DNA of 64,000 nucleotides from positions 1 to 64,000 of the forward strand of contig VBGR01000038.1 in NCBI GenBank assembly GCA_005880695.1. The letters run 5' to 3'. Numbering within the stretch: the first letter of the stretch is position 1; the number at the start of each line of letters is the position of its first letter. The DNA is from Chloroflexota bacterium (lineage in GTDB: Bacteria; Chloroflexota; Dormibacteria; Dormibacterales; Dormibacteraceae). Below, piece after piece: positions 35,156 through 63,072 of the stretch. A program made the position numbers and the translations under genes. The notes under the pieces are model-generated. The model had not been told where the DNA came from, searched no databases, and saw only the letters and a list, made by a program, of their open reading frames with translations.

Positions 35156-35163
35156 CGCGCCTG

Positions 35164-35263
35164 GGGGACGTTCGGGGGCTGGTGCCTCTCGCGGTCTTCA
35201 AAACCGTCTGTGGGGCGGTGCTGAGCCGTCCCAGGTGGGTTCGATTCCCATCCGTCCCCGCCA
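35164..35263 (+). tRNA. selC: tRNA-Sec (anticodon UCA)
   Basis: A 100-nt tRNA-like sequence with encoded CCA. The acceptor arm GGGGACG(T) pairs with (C)CGTCCCC (seven pairs and one mismatch, then discriminator G). The D stem is six base pairs (GGGGGC/GCCTCT) with a four-base loop TGGT. The anticodon arm GCGGT-CTTCAAA-ACCGT has TCA at 35198-35200. A long variable arm of eight pairs (TGGGGCGG/CCGTCCCA) and a T arm GTGGG-TTCGATT-CCCAT complete it. The six-pair D stem, extended acceptor, long variable arm and UCA anticodon together identify selenocysteine tRNA. It lies nine bases after trxA, about 10 kb upstream of the Sec-containing formate dehydrogenase. Confidence 0.93.
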
Positions 35264-45167: not shown

Positions 45168-45217
45168 AGGGAACGCAGGATAAAGAATCCGGAAAGGCGG
45201 CCGCATAGACTTCGGGC

Positions 45218-47119
45218 ATGGGCGGCGACCGGCTGACTCAGCCGCTGGTCAAAGAAGGCGGCGAGCTCCGGCCGGCGACCTGGGAAGCAGCCCTCGACCG
45301 GGCAGCGGCCGGCTTTCGCCGGGAGCTGGCCCGGAGCGGGCCGGCAGGCTTCGGCCTCTTCAGCTGCTCGAAGGCGACCAACGAGCTGAACTTCATCACA
45401 CAGAAGTTCGCCCGTCAGGTGATGGGCTCCAACAATGTCGACAGCTGCAACCGGACTTGACACGCTCCGAGCGTCGTCGGTCTGGCGACAGTGTTCGGAG
45501 CAGGAGGCGGAACCAGCTCCTATCGGGAGATCGAGACCGCTGAGCTGATCGTGCTCTGGGGATCGAACGCGCGTGAGACCCATCCGATCTTCTTCCACCA
45601 TGTGCTGAAAGGCGTGCGCAACGGTGCCCGCCTGATCGTCATCGATCCACGCCGGACCAGCTCGGCTCGCTGGGCCGACCTCTGGCTCGGGCTCGAAGTC
45701 GGCTCCGACATCGCGCTCGCCAACGGGATCGCCCACGAGATCATCCATGCCGGACTCGCGCGGGAGGACTTCGTGCGGCGCGCGACTGCCGGCTTCGATG
45801 ACTACCGGCGCTGCGTCGAGGCTTACCCGGCGGAGCGCGCGGAGCAGCTGACGGGCATCCCTGCCGGCGTGATCCGCGAGGTCGCCCTGGCCTACGCCCG
45901 GGCGACGCGCGCGCAGATCTGCTGGACCCTCGGAATCACCGAGCACCACAACGCTGTCGACAACGTGCTGGCGTTGATCAACCTCGCGCTGCTGACCGGC
46001 CACGTCGGCCGGGAGGGCTCTGGCCTGAATCCTCTGCGAGGCCAGAACAACGTCCAAGGTGGCGGCGATATGGGGGCTATACCCAACCGGTTACCCGGGT
46101 TTCAGGACGTCGAAGACGTCGAGCTGAGGGCGCCCTTTGAGGCCGCCTGGGACTGCGTCATCCCGCCGCGTCGCGGCCTCCACCTGAGCCAGATGTTCGA
46201 CGCCATGGAACGCGGCGAGCTGACCTCCCTGTACGTGGTCGGCGAGAACCCGGCCGAGTCGGAGGCCGACCAGCACCGAGCCCTCCGCTTGCTCGGTGGC
46301 TTGCAGCATCTCGTGGTGCAGGACATCTTTCTGACGCGCACGTGTCAGCTGGCCGACGTCGTCCTGCCCGCGACGGCGTCCTGGTGCGAGGGCGAGGGCA
46401 CGGTGACCAACAGCGAGCGACGCGTGCAGCGCGTGCGCAAGGCGGTCGAGCCGCCGCCGGGAGCGCGCGACGATCTCGAGATCGTGGCTCAGCTCGCTGG
46501 CCGCTTGGGCCGCCCCTGGGGCTACGGCTCGGCCGAGAAGGTCTGGGCTGAGCTGCGCGGGCTCTCGCCGATGCACCGAGGCATGACGTATCCACGGCTG
46601 GAGGCGCTCGACGGCATCCAATGGCCGTGCCCGAGCGAGGATCATCCCGGCACTCCCACCCTCCACACCCGGCTCTGGGCGGAGCCGCGAGGCGGACCGC
46701 CAGCTCCCTTCAGCGTGGTCGAGCACGAACCACCGGTGGACGAGCTCACTCCCGACTTCCCGATCCGTCTCACGACCGGGCGCCGGCTCGATTCCTTCAA
46801 CACCGGCGTGCAGTCGAGCCGCTATGCCTCGCCGCTCCGGCGCGGCGAAAGCATCGACCTCCACCCGGAGGACGCGACCCAGCTCGGCGTCGTCGAAGGC
46901 GAGCGCGTCCGCGTCGTCTCGCGCCGGGGCGCGCTGGACGCGCCGGTCCGCCTCGACCCAGGGCTGCGGCCAGGCCTGGCGTTCATGACGCTCCACTTCC
47001 CGGACGAGGTGCCAACGAACGTCCTCACGATCGACGCCTACGACCCCAAGTCGGGCACGGCCGAGTTCAAGGCGACCGCGATCCGCGTCGAACCGCTGGC
47101 TGAGCCCGCGACAACCTAG
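45218..47119 (+). CDS. fdhA: Formate dehydrogenase catalytic subunit, selenocysteine-containing, lacking N-terminal [4Fe-4S] domain
   Basis: 633 residues if UGA at 45458-45460 is read as selenocysteine (residue 81). The context SCNRT-U-HAPSVVGLATVFGAGG matches the Sec-His of formate dehydrogenases, and the frame is continuous on both sides. The usual next elements are present: LWGSNARETHP, RGQNNVQGGGDMGAIPN (bis-MGD binding) and the C-terminal cofactor domain. The protein begins at GGDRLTQPL, exactly where the normal N-terminal Fe4S domain would have ended; E. coli FdhF has Sec at 140, about 60 residues later. That missing domain is at the end of the gene at 48868-49725. It oxidises formate to CO2. 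Confidence 0.93.
45461..45501 (+). promoter_or_regulatory. Bacterial SECIS element of fdhA
   Basis: Directly after the UGA: lower stem GCTCCGA/TCGGAGC (7 bp), an internal loop, then upper stem GTCGTC/GGCGAC (6 bp, one G-U) with the apical loop GGTCT. In E. coli fdhF the SelB-binding loop is also GGUCU, and its first G lies at the same distance (position 22 counting the U of UGA as 1). Confidence 0.9.
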
Positions 47120-59599: not shown

Positions 59600-61410
59600 T
59601 CCTCGACCAGCCGCTGCTCCGGCCTCTGGCCGATCTTCGGACGGGTGTCCGCTGGCGCTACCTGGGCGCTTACCTGCTGGCCCTCGTTCCCGCCCTCGTC
59701 ATCGCGTTCGCGCAGCCTGTCTGGTCGCGGGTCGACGAGGCGCAGCACACCGACGTGGTCGTCCAGTACGCGCACGGCGTCTACCCGATCGAGGGCCGCA
59801 CCAAGATCCGGCCGGAAACCCTGGCCCTCATGCAGGAGACCGGCATCTACCGCTGGTCACTGCCAGGCGCCGCTCCGCTGCCCGGCCAGCGCGACCCGAA
59901 CACGTTCGGGGCCCCGCCGAGCACGCAGCCCGGCTCCTCCGAGTTTCGGGCCTGGGTCAGAAGGCATCTCTGGGGCTACTCCTACGAGGCGATGCAGCCG
60001 CCGCTCTTCTACTGCCTGGCGACGCCCGTCTGGATCGCCGGCAACGCGGCGGGTGGAGCTCTTGGCGGCGTCTATGCGGTTCGCGTCCTGAACGCCCTCC
60101 TGCTCGCTCTTCTGGGGCCGATCACCTTCGCGATCGCGCGTCTGGCGCTGCCTGGCGTGCCACGGCTTGCACTGCTGTCGGTGACCGGGCTGGCTGTCCT
60201 CCCGGGCCTGGTGCTGAACGGGTCGCAGGTGGGCAACGACACGCTTGTCGCGGTCCTGGGCGGAGCCGCGGTCCTGATCGCCGCCCGCGGCGCCGTCCAG
60301 GGCTGGCGACCGCGCCTCGCCGTGCTGCTCGGGCTCGCCTTCGGCGGGGCGCTGCTCACCAAGCCAACCGCGGCGGGCCTGGCGCCCGCCCTGGCACTGG
60401 CCTTCCTGTGGCCCGCCGGCACGCCTGGCGGGGAGCGCCTCCGGGCGGCCCTCCTGGCGGCTGGCGTCGGCCTGGCGGTGCTTGCGCCCTGGTTACTGGT
60501 GAACGAAGCGATCTACGGCCAGCCGGTCCCGGGCCGGGCCACCCGGCTGCTGCTGGGCCAGGTCTTCGCAGCCCCGAGCCTGAGCCTGAGCTATCTGGCG
60601 AGGTCCGCCAAGAACGCGTTTGCCACCTTCCTGACGGGCGAGCCCTACAACACCATGGTTCTGGTCCGGCCCTTGGGCTACATAGGTGCGGCCTGGGCAG
60701 TGTTGGCGGTGGTCGGATCGGCCCGCCTGCTGCGCCGGGCAGGCTGGCCGCCGGCCCTCCTACTGCTCCTGGCGGCGGTCGCCGGACAGGCCGCATGGTT
60801 GGCCGTCCAGCCCTACCTCTCCCAGGTCGGGGGACTCATGCCCGGGCGCTACCTCTACCCGGCGGCGGCACCTGCCCTGGTGCTCCTGGTAGCCGGCGCC
60901 TGGGAGTTTCGCCGGCTGCGGGTCGCGGTGCTCGGTGCCTACCTGGCCCTGGCGGTCGTCGCGCTCGCCGCGTTCAGCGCCGGGATCACCGGCAGCCAGC
61001 CCGACCCGCGCTCCCAGCCGCCGCCGGGCGCCGTCGCGGTCAGCGCCGAGAACTCCTTCGCGGGCCTCCACCTGCTGGCGGACCGTGTCGTGCTCGCCGA
61101 CGGCGGCCGGCTGGCCTGGGTCCACCTGACCGTCCGGGACGAGTCCAGCCAGCCGGTGGACTGGAACCCCTCGGGCTCCGGACTCCTCGGCGACGGTACA
61201 GCGGTCCGGGCCGTCTATTCGGCCTCGTCGCCGTTTCCGGAACGGCTCCAGCCTGGCGCCGAGGCAACGGGCTGGATGGAGTTCAGGTTCGACCGGGTCC
61301 CGCCGCAGAAACCGGAAACCCTGAAGCTGGTCTTCAGCGACGTGGCCCCGGCCGACTACTCAACAGTGCTGCCGTCGCTGCCGCTCTGGATCGACCTTCG
61401 GGCCGTTTAG
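59596..61410 (+). CDS. DUF2142-like membrane glycosyltransferase
   Basis: 604 residues from GTG with about twelve helices and a C-terminal soluble beta domain (about 465-604, WVHLTVRDESSQPVDWNPSG). The early loop PVWSRVDEAQHTDVVVQYAH contains the D-E pair used by GT-C enzymes (as in DxD/DE motifs of ArnT/DUF2142 proteins), followed by the YEAMQPPLFYCLATPVW region. It is GT-C type, using polyprenyl-phosphate sugars. It is coupled to the upstream PIG-V-like gene. Its stop overlaps by four bases that of the convergent rhodanese-CBS gene. Confidence 0.82.
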   Translation: MILDQPLLRPLADLRTGVRWRYLGAYLLALVPALVIAFAQPVWSRVDEAQHTDVVVQYAHGVYPIEGRTKIRPETLALMQETGIYRWSLPGAAPLPGQRDPNTFGAPPSTQPGSSEFRAWVRRHLWGYSYEAMQPPLFYCLATPVWIAGNAAGGALGGVYAVRVLNALLLALLGPITFAIARLALPGVPRLALLSVTGLAVLPGLVLNGSQVGNDTLVAVLGGAAVLIAARGAVQGWRPRLAVLLGLAFGGALLTKPTAAGLAPALALAFLWPAGTPGGERLRAALLAAGVGLAVLAPWLLVNEAIYGQPVPGRATRLLLGQVFAAPSLSLSYLARSAKNAFATFLTGEPYNTMVLVRPLGYIGAAWAVLAVVGSARLLRRAGWPPALLLLLAAVAGQAAWLAVQPYLSQVGGLMPGRYLYPAAAPALVLLVAGAWEFRRLRVAVLGAYLALAVVALAAFSAGITGSQPDPRSQPPPGAVAVSAENSFAGLHLLADRVVLADGGRLAWVHLTVRDESSQPVDWNPSGSGLLGDGTAVRAVYSASSPFPERLQPGAEATGWMEFRFDRVPPQKPETLKLVFSDVAPADYSTVLPSLPLWIDLRAV

Positions 61411-62093
61411 CTCCTTCGATCCAGCAGCAGCTTTTCGGCGTCCTGGCGGCCGAGGATACCGACCAGCCGGCCGTCGGGATGCGTGATCAGGGCACTCTCG
61501 AAGCCACGCGACTTCATGCGCTCTACCAGCTCTTCCAGGGGGACGTCGGGGCGGTAGGTGCCGGGACCTGGTTCCATGACGCGGCCGGCAGGGGCGTCAG
61601 GATCGTCACCCACCTTGGCGCGCCGTAGGCGGCCGAGCAGGATGCCCTCGTCATTGACCACAGCCGCCTGGGTCCAGCCCGCCTCGGCCATCCGCTCGAG
61701 GGCAACGCTGACAGGTTCCAGCAGCCCGCAGCTCGGGACGTCCGGCCGCATCGCGTCGGCGACGACCGCGACCTGCCGGCCGGCCATCGGCAACCCGAAA
61801 GCCGACCACTCGGCCTTACCCGCCGTGTAGTCCCAGACGTCCTCGAAGCCGAGGCTTTCGAGCCGCGACGCGGCTCGTGGGCTCATGTCTCAAACCGTGT
61901 CGTTGCAGTAGACGATGATCGGCCGGGTGCGGTCGAGCCGGCTCGCGCTCTGCTCATCGAGCTCCTTCAGGGGCAAGCTTTCAGCGAGCGCCAGATGGCC
62001 CTGCTCGTAGTCGGCGGTGGGCAGCACCTCGAGCAGCTGGGCACCCTCCTGGAGCAGCCGCTGGACGTCAGCCCGGCTTGCGCTGCGTGGCAT
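61407..62093 (-). CDS. Rhodanese-CBS protein, candidate selenoprotein with in-frame UGA
   Basis: 228 residues if UGA (61890-61892, residue 68) is read through as selenocysteine. Residues 1-102 form a rhodanese domain: SRADVQRLLQEGAQLLEVLP, then IIVYC-NDTV-U-DMSPRAASRLESLGF and VWDYTAGKAEW. The catalytic-type Cys63 is five residues before the UGA; I recall Cys at the UGA position in family members (YC-x4-C-D-x-SPRAA), but no alignment was run. Two CBS motifs (DAMRPDVPSCGLLEPVSVAL and AGRVMEPGPGTY) fill the rest. Frame and homology continue across the UGA, and a SECIS-like hairpin follows. The start overlaps the LLM gene by 26 bases. The alternative is a recent nonsense mutation. Confidence 0.75.
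61859..61877 (-). promoter_or_regulatory. Candidate bacterial SECIS of the rhodanese-CBS gene
   Basis: A perfect 8-bp stem CGAGCCGC/GCGGCTCG with a three-base loop GTC, G in first position. The loop begins 20 bases after the UGA (position 24 counting U as 1), within the range accepted for bacterial SECIS elements. It lacks the GGUCU loop of fdhA and also encodes conserved residues, so this is weaker evidence than the fdhA element. Confidence 0.55.
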
Positions 62094-63072
62094 TGACGGC
62101 CGGGAGCACCTCCTTCGCATAGAACTCCAGGAAGCCCTCCTGGTCGGGGCCGACCTGGTGGACGAAAACGTGCTCGTAGCCGGCACCTTGGAACTCCTGG
62201 AGCGCTTTCGCGTGGGGTTCCGGGTCCGGGCCGAGCACGATCTTTCTGGCCACCTCCTCCGGCCTGACCAGGCGGCAGGCGGCTTCGAACTGGGAAGGCA
62301 GCCGGAGCTCGCTGCGGAGCGGGCCCGGGACGCCGGCCAGCGGCCACCAGCGGTGCGCGGTCTCCAGCGCCCGGTCGCGGTCCGGCGCCCAGCAGGCGGC
62401 GACCTGTCCGTACCGCGGCTTGCGGCCGCCGCCGGCTCCGCTGAAGGTCTGCGCCAGCTCCTGGTCGGGCTCCACCGCGATCAGGCCATCCCCGATCCGG
62501 CCCGCAAGCTCGGCTGACTTCCGGCCGCCGGCCGCAACCAGGATCGGCGGGACGGGTTCAGGCAGGGTGTAGACGCGAGCGTCCTCCACCGTGTAGTGGC
62601 GGCCGCGCCAGCTGCGGAGCCCGCCCTGCCAGAGGTGGCGGATCAGGGCGACCGCCTCTTCCAGCATCTCCAGGCGGACATCGATGGGCGGCCACCTGGC
62701 ACCCACGACGTGCTCGTTGAGGTTCTCGCCGGTGCCGACGCCGAAGAGAAACCGGCCCTCCATCAGCACCGAAGTCGTCGCCGCGGCCTGCGCCAGCACG
62801 ACCGGGTGGATCCGGATCAGCGGGCAGGTGACCGCCGTGCCGATGCGCAGGCGCTCGGTCGCCTGCGCGATGGCGCCCAGCACGCTCCAGACGAACGGGC
62901 TCTGACCCTGCTGGTCGATCCAGGGATGAAAGTGGTCCGAGATCATGGCGAAGCCGAAGCCCAGCTCCTCGGCTCGGTGCGCCACCCTGACCAGGGCAGC
63001 CGGCCCCTGCTCCTCGGAGGAGAGGCTGATTCCCACCTCGAACGCCCGAGGGATCGCGGCCATAAAAGTCAT
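62068..63072 (-). CDS. LLM-class F420-dependent oxidoreductase (FGD-like)
   Basis: 334 residues (MTFMAAIPRAFEVGISLSSE; an ATG three codons later is possible). The luciferase-like TIM barrel shows ISDHFHPWIDQQGQSPFVWS, RIGTAVTCPLIRIHPVVLAQ and FLFGVGTGENLNEHVVG, motifs of the F420-dependent glucose-6-phosphate dehydrogenase/TIGR03557 group. It transfers hydride between F420 and a sugar or alcohol substrate. The end overlaps the start of the rhodanese-CBS gene by 26 bases, so the two are probably co-translated. Confidence 0.9.
   Translation of the reverse strand: MTFMAAIPRAFEVGISLSSEEQGPAALVRVAHRAEELGFGFAMISDHFHPWIDQQGQSPFVWSVLGAIAQATERLRIGTAVTCPLIRIHPVVLAQAAATTSVLMEGRFLFGVGTGENLNEHVVGARWPPIDVRLEMLEEAVALIRHLWQGGLRSWRGRHYTVEDARVYTLPEPVPPILVAAGGRKSAELAGRIGDGLIAVEPDQELAQTFSGAGGGRKPRYGQVAACWAPDRDRALETAHRWWPLAGVPGPLRSELRLPSQFEAACRLVRPEEVARKIVLGPDPEPHAKALQEFQGAGYEHVFVHQVGPDQEGFLEFYAKEVLPAVNATQRKPG

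Follow-up and report, generated by a model that had tools for sequence, protein, structure and literature searches.

A rhodanese-CBS fusion gene with a predicted selenocysteine codon in a Dormibacteraceae contig

Introduction

Contig VBGR01000038.1 belongs to assembly GCA_005880695.1 of a Chloroflexota bacterium within the family Dormibacteraceae, and its first 64,000 nucleotides (nt), here called the window, were analysed as one stretch. The minus strand of this stretch carries a gene for a rhodanese domain fused to a CBS pair, which is interrupted by a single in-frame UGA codon. Here we describe this gene, its relatives and the RNA hairpin behind the UGA, which resembles a bacterial selenocysteine insertion sequence (SECIS), and we propose that the codon is read as selenocysteine (Sec).

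Gene and protein features

The gene starts with an ATG at 62093 and stops with a TAA at 61407-61409, with one in-frame UGA between them (Table 1). Read across the UGA, the active-site loop is ...IIVYCNDTV-U-DMSPRAASRLESLGF, in which the segment C-N-D-T-V-U puts residue 68 five residues past Cys63. The initial annotation, made from the nucleotides alone, had described two open stretches of one frame split by a single UGA, a rhodanese domain running continuously across it, a UGA five residues after a catalytic-type Cys, and a fused CBS pair. It named no strand; all of these features were recovered on the minus strand, and the plus strand of the same interval, when checked, did not encode a rhodanese-CBS protein. 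The rhodanese model PF00581 scored 42.9 bits on the protein against a gathering cut-off of 22.2, with a match that spans the UGA, and PF00571 scored 51.5 bits (cut-off 24) over two CBS stretches. The structure model had a mean pLDDT of 95.5, and Foldseek matched it to CBS pairs and to the rhodanese BH2092. A third Cys, Cys122, lies in the linker that leads to the CBS pair; it is nearly invariant in the homologue alignment and is retained in five of six Streptomyces fusions that have Cys in place of Sec.

Table 1. Features of the window considered in this study
Feature	Position	Strand	Evidence or description
Predicted rhodanese-CBS selenoprotein gene	61407..62093	minus	ATG to TAA, 228 aa with Sec68; 31 homologues aligned end to end
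In-frame UGA, codon 68 (predicted Sec)	61890..61892	minus	TGA in 109/111 distinct sequences, TGC in 2
TGC, Cys63, rhodanese active-site Cys	61905..61907	minus	Same codon TGA in 18/109 Sec members
SECIS-type hairpin	61859..61877	minus	Arms 61870-61877 and 61859-61866, loop GUC 61867-61869; synonymous suppression, pairing counts, fold
Rhodanese domain, residues 8-98	61800..62072	minus	PF00581, E 7.2e-11
CBS pair, about residues 108-225	61419..61772	minus	PF00571, two stretches, E 1.3e-13; Foldseek matches to CBS pairs
Upstream F420-dependent LLM-class oxidoreductase gene	62068..63072	minus	TIGR03557, E 2e-133
selC, tRNA-Sec, anticodon TCA	35163..35263	plus	ARAGORN

The UGA codon in relatives

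Relatives were collected in two samples of whole genomes and in a scan of contigs, sets that overlap, and were pooled to 111 distinct family sequences, in which codon 68 was TGA in 109 and TGC in 2. The phylum sample comprised 400 genomes including the window's own; 291 had some match at E <= 1e-3, mostly short, and the best 40 loci (L001, L017-L055) had TGA at column 68 without exception (40/40). When contigs were scanned with the family alignment, 104 relatives were confirmed, and the best 80, which were kept, had 78 TGA and 2 TGC. No matches came from a contig scan with the single window protein as query, nor were family members found in a scan of viral contigs. In a third sample of 393 genomes from the class of genome G405, 15 carriers at E <= 1e-30 held 21 loci, all with TGA (21/21, one gene being counted as two loci). 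Relatives that share as little as about 40% identity with the window protein still have TGA68.

Forms with Cys were found beside these. Among 295 genomes of Streptomyces (the genus of genome G400), 21 had matches at 1e-20, five of them full-length fusions and 16 the rhodanese part alone; columns 63 and 68 are both Cys in every one of the 21. The full-length fusion was matched in G407 alone among the 297 genomes sampled around it; three loci of that sample (L209-L211) consist of a rhodanese part with Cys at both columns and a degenerate tail that matches CBS below the cut-off or not at all. The six Cys fusions make up one side of a branch (SH-aLRT 96) in a midpoint-rooted tree of 90 members made by a quick method. 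The exchange of UGA and Cys on which the initial annotation had relied is therefore seen in the two TGC sequences, the 21 Streptomyces relatives and L209-L211, and its suggestion to look for the same UGA in related genomes was answered by the 109 distinct sequences. It had regarded a residue other than Cys at this column as damaging to the idea; within the family, column 68 held Sec or Cys and no other residue.

The protein sequence is conserved on both sides of the UGA in the alignment of 31 homologues. The nearest relative found, L017 (87% identical), keeps the UGA, and the ratio of nonsynonymous to synonymous substitution rates (dN/dS) between the two genes was 0.34 before the codon and 0.14 after it. 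In this one pair, the stretch beyond the UGA is constrained at least as strongly as the stretch before. Simple mutation accompanied by other damage in close relatives, a second outcome of which the initial annotation had warned, is therefore not what the nearest relative displays. The same data bear on a pseudogene or assembly error, which would make the UGA a nonsense change or a wrong base confined to one genome. Codon 68 does read as stop under table 11 and a few family members are frameshifted, but this reading is refuted by the conserved UGA, found in nearly all distinct family sequences; the low dN/dS after the codon and the synonymous constraint just downstream also speak against it, and we give it practically no weight. 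The UGA is not an artefact.

Alternatively, the locus could encode two proteins, a rhodanese half stopping at the UGA and a second product, with the rest of the rhodanese and the CBS pair, starting at Met70. The window has ATG at codon 70, and 75 of the 109 Sec members have a start-type codon (ATG, GTG or TTG) at this place, but the other 34 have none; moreover, a split at the UGA would cut through an active-site loop that is conserved on both sides, and the Cys forms read straight through column 68. We consider two proteins very improbable, if marginally less so than an error.

The hairpin downstream of the UGA

The initial annotation had called a perfect 8-base-pair hairpin with a G-first loop at a SECIS-like distance, and this element was located beginning 12 nt after the UGA codon, as CGAGCCGC-GUC-GCGGCUCG. 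The form common to the family is CGAGCCGC-G(U/G)(G/C)-GCGGCUCG. Synonymous codon use was tested in 76 sequences less than 80% identical, over 67 columns. Four codons were nearly fixed, namely 74 (GCC, 100%), 75 (GCG, 97%), 77 (CGG, 99%) and 78 (CTC, 95%), against a background use of 36-42% for the same codons in these genes overall (p 7e-26 to 2e-32 each). The next strongest columns were codon 72 (p 2e-9) and codon 73 in the outer stem (p 2e-8), and the remainder were at 1e-5 or weaker. Codons 74, 75, 77 and 78 are the core of the hairpin after the UGA; the codons that form it are conserved across relatives far beyond chance.

Pairing is maintained across the distinct members, whether they have Sec at column 68 only (single-Sec) or at column 63 as well (double-Sec). 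The five innermost pairs are intact in 14/14 double-Sec and 83/84 single-Sec members, the sixth pair is A-U or G-U in 98/98, and the loop is G-first in 84/84 single-Sec and 10/14 double-Sec members. The third base of codon 76, which closes the loop, is G in 104 of 108 sequences (TGG, GCG or TCG in 102, GTG or TTG in 2), with TGC in the other 4.

Selenium machinery

The genome of the window has the genes for Sec insertion. As the initial annotation had noted, selC lies in the window itself; selB and selA are adjacent on another contig and selD is also present, so that the absence of selA or selB, which that annotation would have counted against a selenoprotein, is not what the genome shows. Counting matches over the cut-off, selA was found in this genome and in 37 of the 38 other carriers. 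Two Streptomyces genomes that encode Cys fusions differed in this respect, one having selA over the cut-off and the other no match. The initial annotation had also credited the genome with a certain Sec enzyme; the window contains a formate dehydrogenase alpha frame at 45209-47116 (plus strand), with an in-frame UGA at 45458 in a U-H-A-P motif. This frame scored 644.6 bits against TIGR01591, just under the cut-off of 666.25; the match starts at profile position 52, and the first part is therefore absent from the frame. As a separate observation, the selD match (L013, G000:C39:19684-20592) contains one in-frame TGA, as in Sec-containing SelD.

Assessment of selenocysteine decoding

Several observations weigh against Sec decoding. 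The window hairpin taken by itself is ordinary for a stretch of its base composition (z -1.57), with 17 of 200 shuffled sequences folding equally well. Four double-Sec members have the loop UUG, which is not G-first, and among ten further distinct members the closing pair is lost in four and an inner pair in L170. A hairpin is also present in forms with Cys: L138 keeps all eight pair positions and L209, L210 and L211 keep seven of eight, with changed base pairs in L209 and L211. Carrier G095 has no selA over the cut-off, and selA is present in 27 of 34 comparison genomes without a fusion match; being common in non-carriers too, selA is necessary rather than telling. More remote rhodaneses have neither Sec nor Cys at the column (L003 and the second domain of L214), and frameshifted family members occur (L054, L171/L176). 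The hairpins of the Cys forms may be relics of a recent change from Sec to Cys or may have another RNA role; that of L209-L211, standing at the SECIS place, is possibly the relic of a lost Sec codon.

Some of these points would suit readthrough of the UGA with another residue, by a near-cognate Trp-tRNA or a suppressor, in which the hairpin served readthrough and not Sec insertion: a hairpin might promote readthrough, the loops of four members are not G-first, and some Cys relatives retain the structure. However, the forms without UGA have Cys at column 68 and never Trp, and selA, selB, selC and selD are all in the genome. The Cys forms L209-L211, which keep the hairpin, slightly raise this alternative and slightly lower our confidence in the selenoprotein and in the explanation as a whole; readthrough nevertheless stays very unlikely, though it ranks a little above the two alternatives already considered. 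From sequence comparison, we hold it almost certain that this is an intact selenoprotein gene whose UGA68 would be decoded as Sec by SelB and tRNA-Sec through the hairpin 12 nt after the codon. It very probably stands for a genuine family of selenoproteins, Sec rhodaneses of a known kind whose domain architecture is new. The initial annotation is thereby confirmed in what it observed and, within the reach of the tests made, supported in how it read the gene.

Members with two UGA codons

The codon of the catalytic Cys63 is itself UGA in 18 of the 109 distinct Sec members, which then read U-x4-U with two UGAs 15 nt apart. In the 90-member tree, 13 such members require at least three changes. 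In these members, the second UGA lies in a 27-nt stretch that folds more stably than its counterpart in the single-Sec ones, with a median of -9.35 kcal/mol (18 double-Sec) against -3.70 kcal/mol (91 single-Sec; p 2e-7) and a shuffle z of -2.31 against 0.10 (p 9e-9), p-values that are overstated by the relatedness of the sequences. One double-Sec group has the stem GGGCUC/GAGCCC or GGACUC/GAGUCC around the loop UGAGACAU, which contains the second UGA; the change between the two stems is compensatory and falls on third codon positions of Gly and Ser. Four members have the stem CGGAY/GUCCG, with the second UGA between its arms. The double-Sec members with an extra hairpin follow two registers (L064, L071, L078, L086, L094, L095, L109, L124, L125 and L128; L162, L164, L167 and L168).

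The 6-base-pair register, with one G-U allowed, is complete in 9/18 double-Sec and 0/91 single-Sec members, and five of its six pairs are present in two of each. An identical second hairpin in every double-Sec member was considered and dropped on these counts. In 15/18 double-Sec and 19/91 single-Sec members the second UGA is unpaired in a hairpin predicted at -5 kcal/mol or below; z is above -1 in 4 of the 18, and some single-Sec members fold equally well (best -10.9). Predicted folds of three loci of TsoB, a Sec rhodanese compared below, pair the same stretch (L184-L186).

These folds suggest, tentatively and at somewhat less than an even chance, that double-Sec members have two nested recoding signals, each UGA with its own SECIS. 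A first hairpin after UGA63 would hold the second UGA in its loop, with the main hairpin a few nt further on, and the two would serve one after the other, the ribosome melting the first and so positioning the second. If true, this would be a natural case of dual recoding, with both residues of a rhodanese redox pair switching between Cys and Sec.

Gene neighbourhood

The start of the fusion gene overlaps the last 26 nt of the F420-dependent oxidoreductase gene upstream. A conserved operon was sought around the family loci and none was found, which leaves the chemistry proposed below without operon support. Clusters of similar neighbouring open reading frames, shadow frames included, reached at most 13 of 80 loci. 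For the Pfam scan (E <= 1e-5), 36 upstream genes were selected and L116 was left out, and 30 downstream genes were selected and L081, L108 and L122 were left out; no family occurred in more than 3/35 upstream or 2/27 downstream genes. Among the 25 of 32 upstream families that were listed, the most frequent were Pirin, MFS and the pyridine-nucleotide disulfide oxidoreductases (3/35 each), and Bac_luciferase was found in 1/35.

Proposed mechanism

The protein is most likely a C-x4-U (selenenylsulfide) rhodanese that would move or reduce sulfane sulfur, joined to a nucleotide-sensing CBS pair. Sec68 would sit in the long active-site loop of the rhodanese domain, five residues past Cys63. Cys63, or Sec in some relatives, would accept sulfane sulfur and become a persulfide; Sec68 would act as the resolving residue, forming a Cys63-Sec68 selenenylsulfide as sulfide is released or the sulfur is handed on, and a thioredoxin-type reductant would reset the pair. 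We lean slightly towards this working of the two residues. The C-terminal CBS pair may bind an adenine nucleotide and so tune or sense the activity, a suggestion to which we give an even chance.

A selenoprotein could also work otherwise, with Sec68 as the sulfur- or selenium-accepting catalytic residue, or as a metal or metalloid ligand, and not as the resolving partner of Cys63. Both columns accept Sec, as the U-x4-U members show, and some neighbours would suit such roles, with MerB in 1/27 downstream genes, cation efflux in 1/35 upstream genes and the disulfide oxidoreductases mentioned above. These neighbours are rare, however, and Cys63 occupies what we take to be the standard catalytic position of the Pfam-matched rhodanese domain. 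We regard this alternative as a substantial one, yet less probable than a resolving Sec68. Taken as a whole, our explanation of the locus, a selenoprotein whose mode of working is its less certain part, is in our judgement highly probable.

Significance and comparison with known systems

The family adds a selenoprotein that uses Sec in nearly every member found. Its carriers are mostly Chloroflexi and Dormibacteraeota, with some Actinobacteria and others, and nearly all are metagenome-assembled; where the UGA is read as stop, the gene would be cut into two fragments. Having Sec at either or both residues of one loop, the family offers a test bed for the contribution of selenium to persulfide chemistry, and its two UGAs 15 nt apart allow a test of how closely spaced Sec codons both get decoded.

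No NCBIfam model reached its cut-off on the window protein, and the best E-value of 31 aligned members to any model was 4.5e-13. TsoB (NF045694), a rhodanese/DsbD fusion-like selenoprotein that reportedly comes from Haft and Tolstoy in 2025, has the same long active-site loop, in its case FY-U-x4-U-xx-S-xx-AA, and its U-x4-U is the state of the double-Sec members. This loop had two Sec in 14/14 loci fetched, which were picked for in-frame TGAs, one further over-cut-off match without stops being left out, and the TsoB model was weakly matched by 31/31 family members tested. TsoB is, however, far longer (572 positions, cut-off 805 bits), and the window protein scores 27.7 bits against it over residues 53-116 only; the window family, unlike TsoB, has a CBS pair and mostly C-x4-U. 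The C-terminal half shares its fold with the CBS pairs of AcuB, MgtE and arabinose-5-phosphate isomerase-type proteins, which have other partner domains. The window's genome also encodes a rhodanese paralogue (L002, G000:C104:88-348) with C-x4-C in the form YCRGPYC, a type of motif that we presume to be that of ArsR-rhodanese regulators. The other rhodaneses fetched commonly have C-x4-C, as does the solved BH2092 (PDB 3NHV/3O3W), whose loop has the same spacing and a Cys where the window family has Sec; BH2092 differs in being Cys only, a 144-residue chain in which no CBS pair was matched.

The model rhodanese_LYCAU (NF041203), for a rhodanese-related (seleno)protein, was weakly matched by 23/31 members. 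It spans 126 positions and has C-x-U spacing, a motif given as CxU in the available part of the 2026 review PMC13188914, whereas the window protein has C-x4-U and scores 22.3 bits against a cut-off of 115. In the same part, the review tabulates 119 families and subfamilies, five rhodanese forms among them, and its Table 1 gives rhodanese-like selenoproteins of forms 1, 2 and 4 (UxxS, UxxG). The U-D-M-S of the window protein fits the written motif of form 1 (UxxS), compared by the text of the table alone, and form 1 may share the Sec column of the window family. The 119-family table names no CBS protein and "CBS" is absent from the review's main text. Sec rhodaneses or sulfurtransferases are named, and "CBS" is absent, in the available text of PMC1088965, PMC9312934, PMC5029168 and PMC2398784, some of whose marine rhodanese entries could include the rhodanese-CBS family. 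Rhodanese occurs in a reference only in PMC1794560, where CBS was not searched for, and neither term occurs in PMC12013277. The literature covered by our search, in the text available, contained no rhodanese-CBS selenoprotein, and other papers or supplements may contain one.

Among the 30 loci fetched from the 297 genomes around G407, five non-fusion rhodaneses (L223, L224, L225, L232 and L236) have UGA at the +5 column (YC-x4-U), three of them nearly alike (L223, L224, L232), and the second domain of L228 does as well; Sec at the +5 position thus recurs in rhodaneses. Since C-x4-U and U-x4-U rhodaneses of other architectures exist, TsoB among them, the window family is best placed as a new architecture of a known kind.

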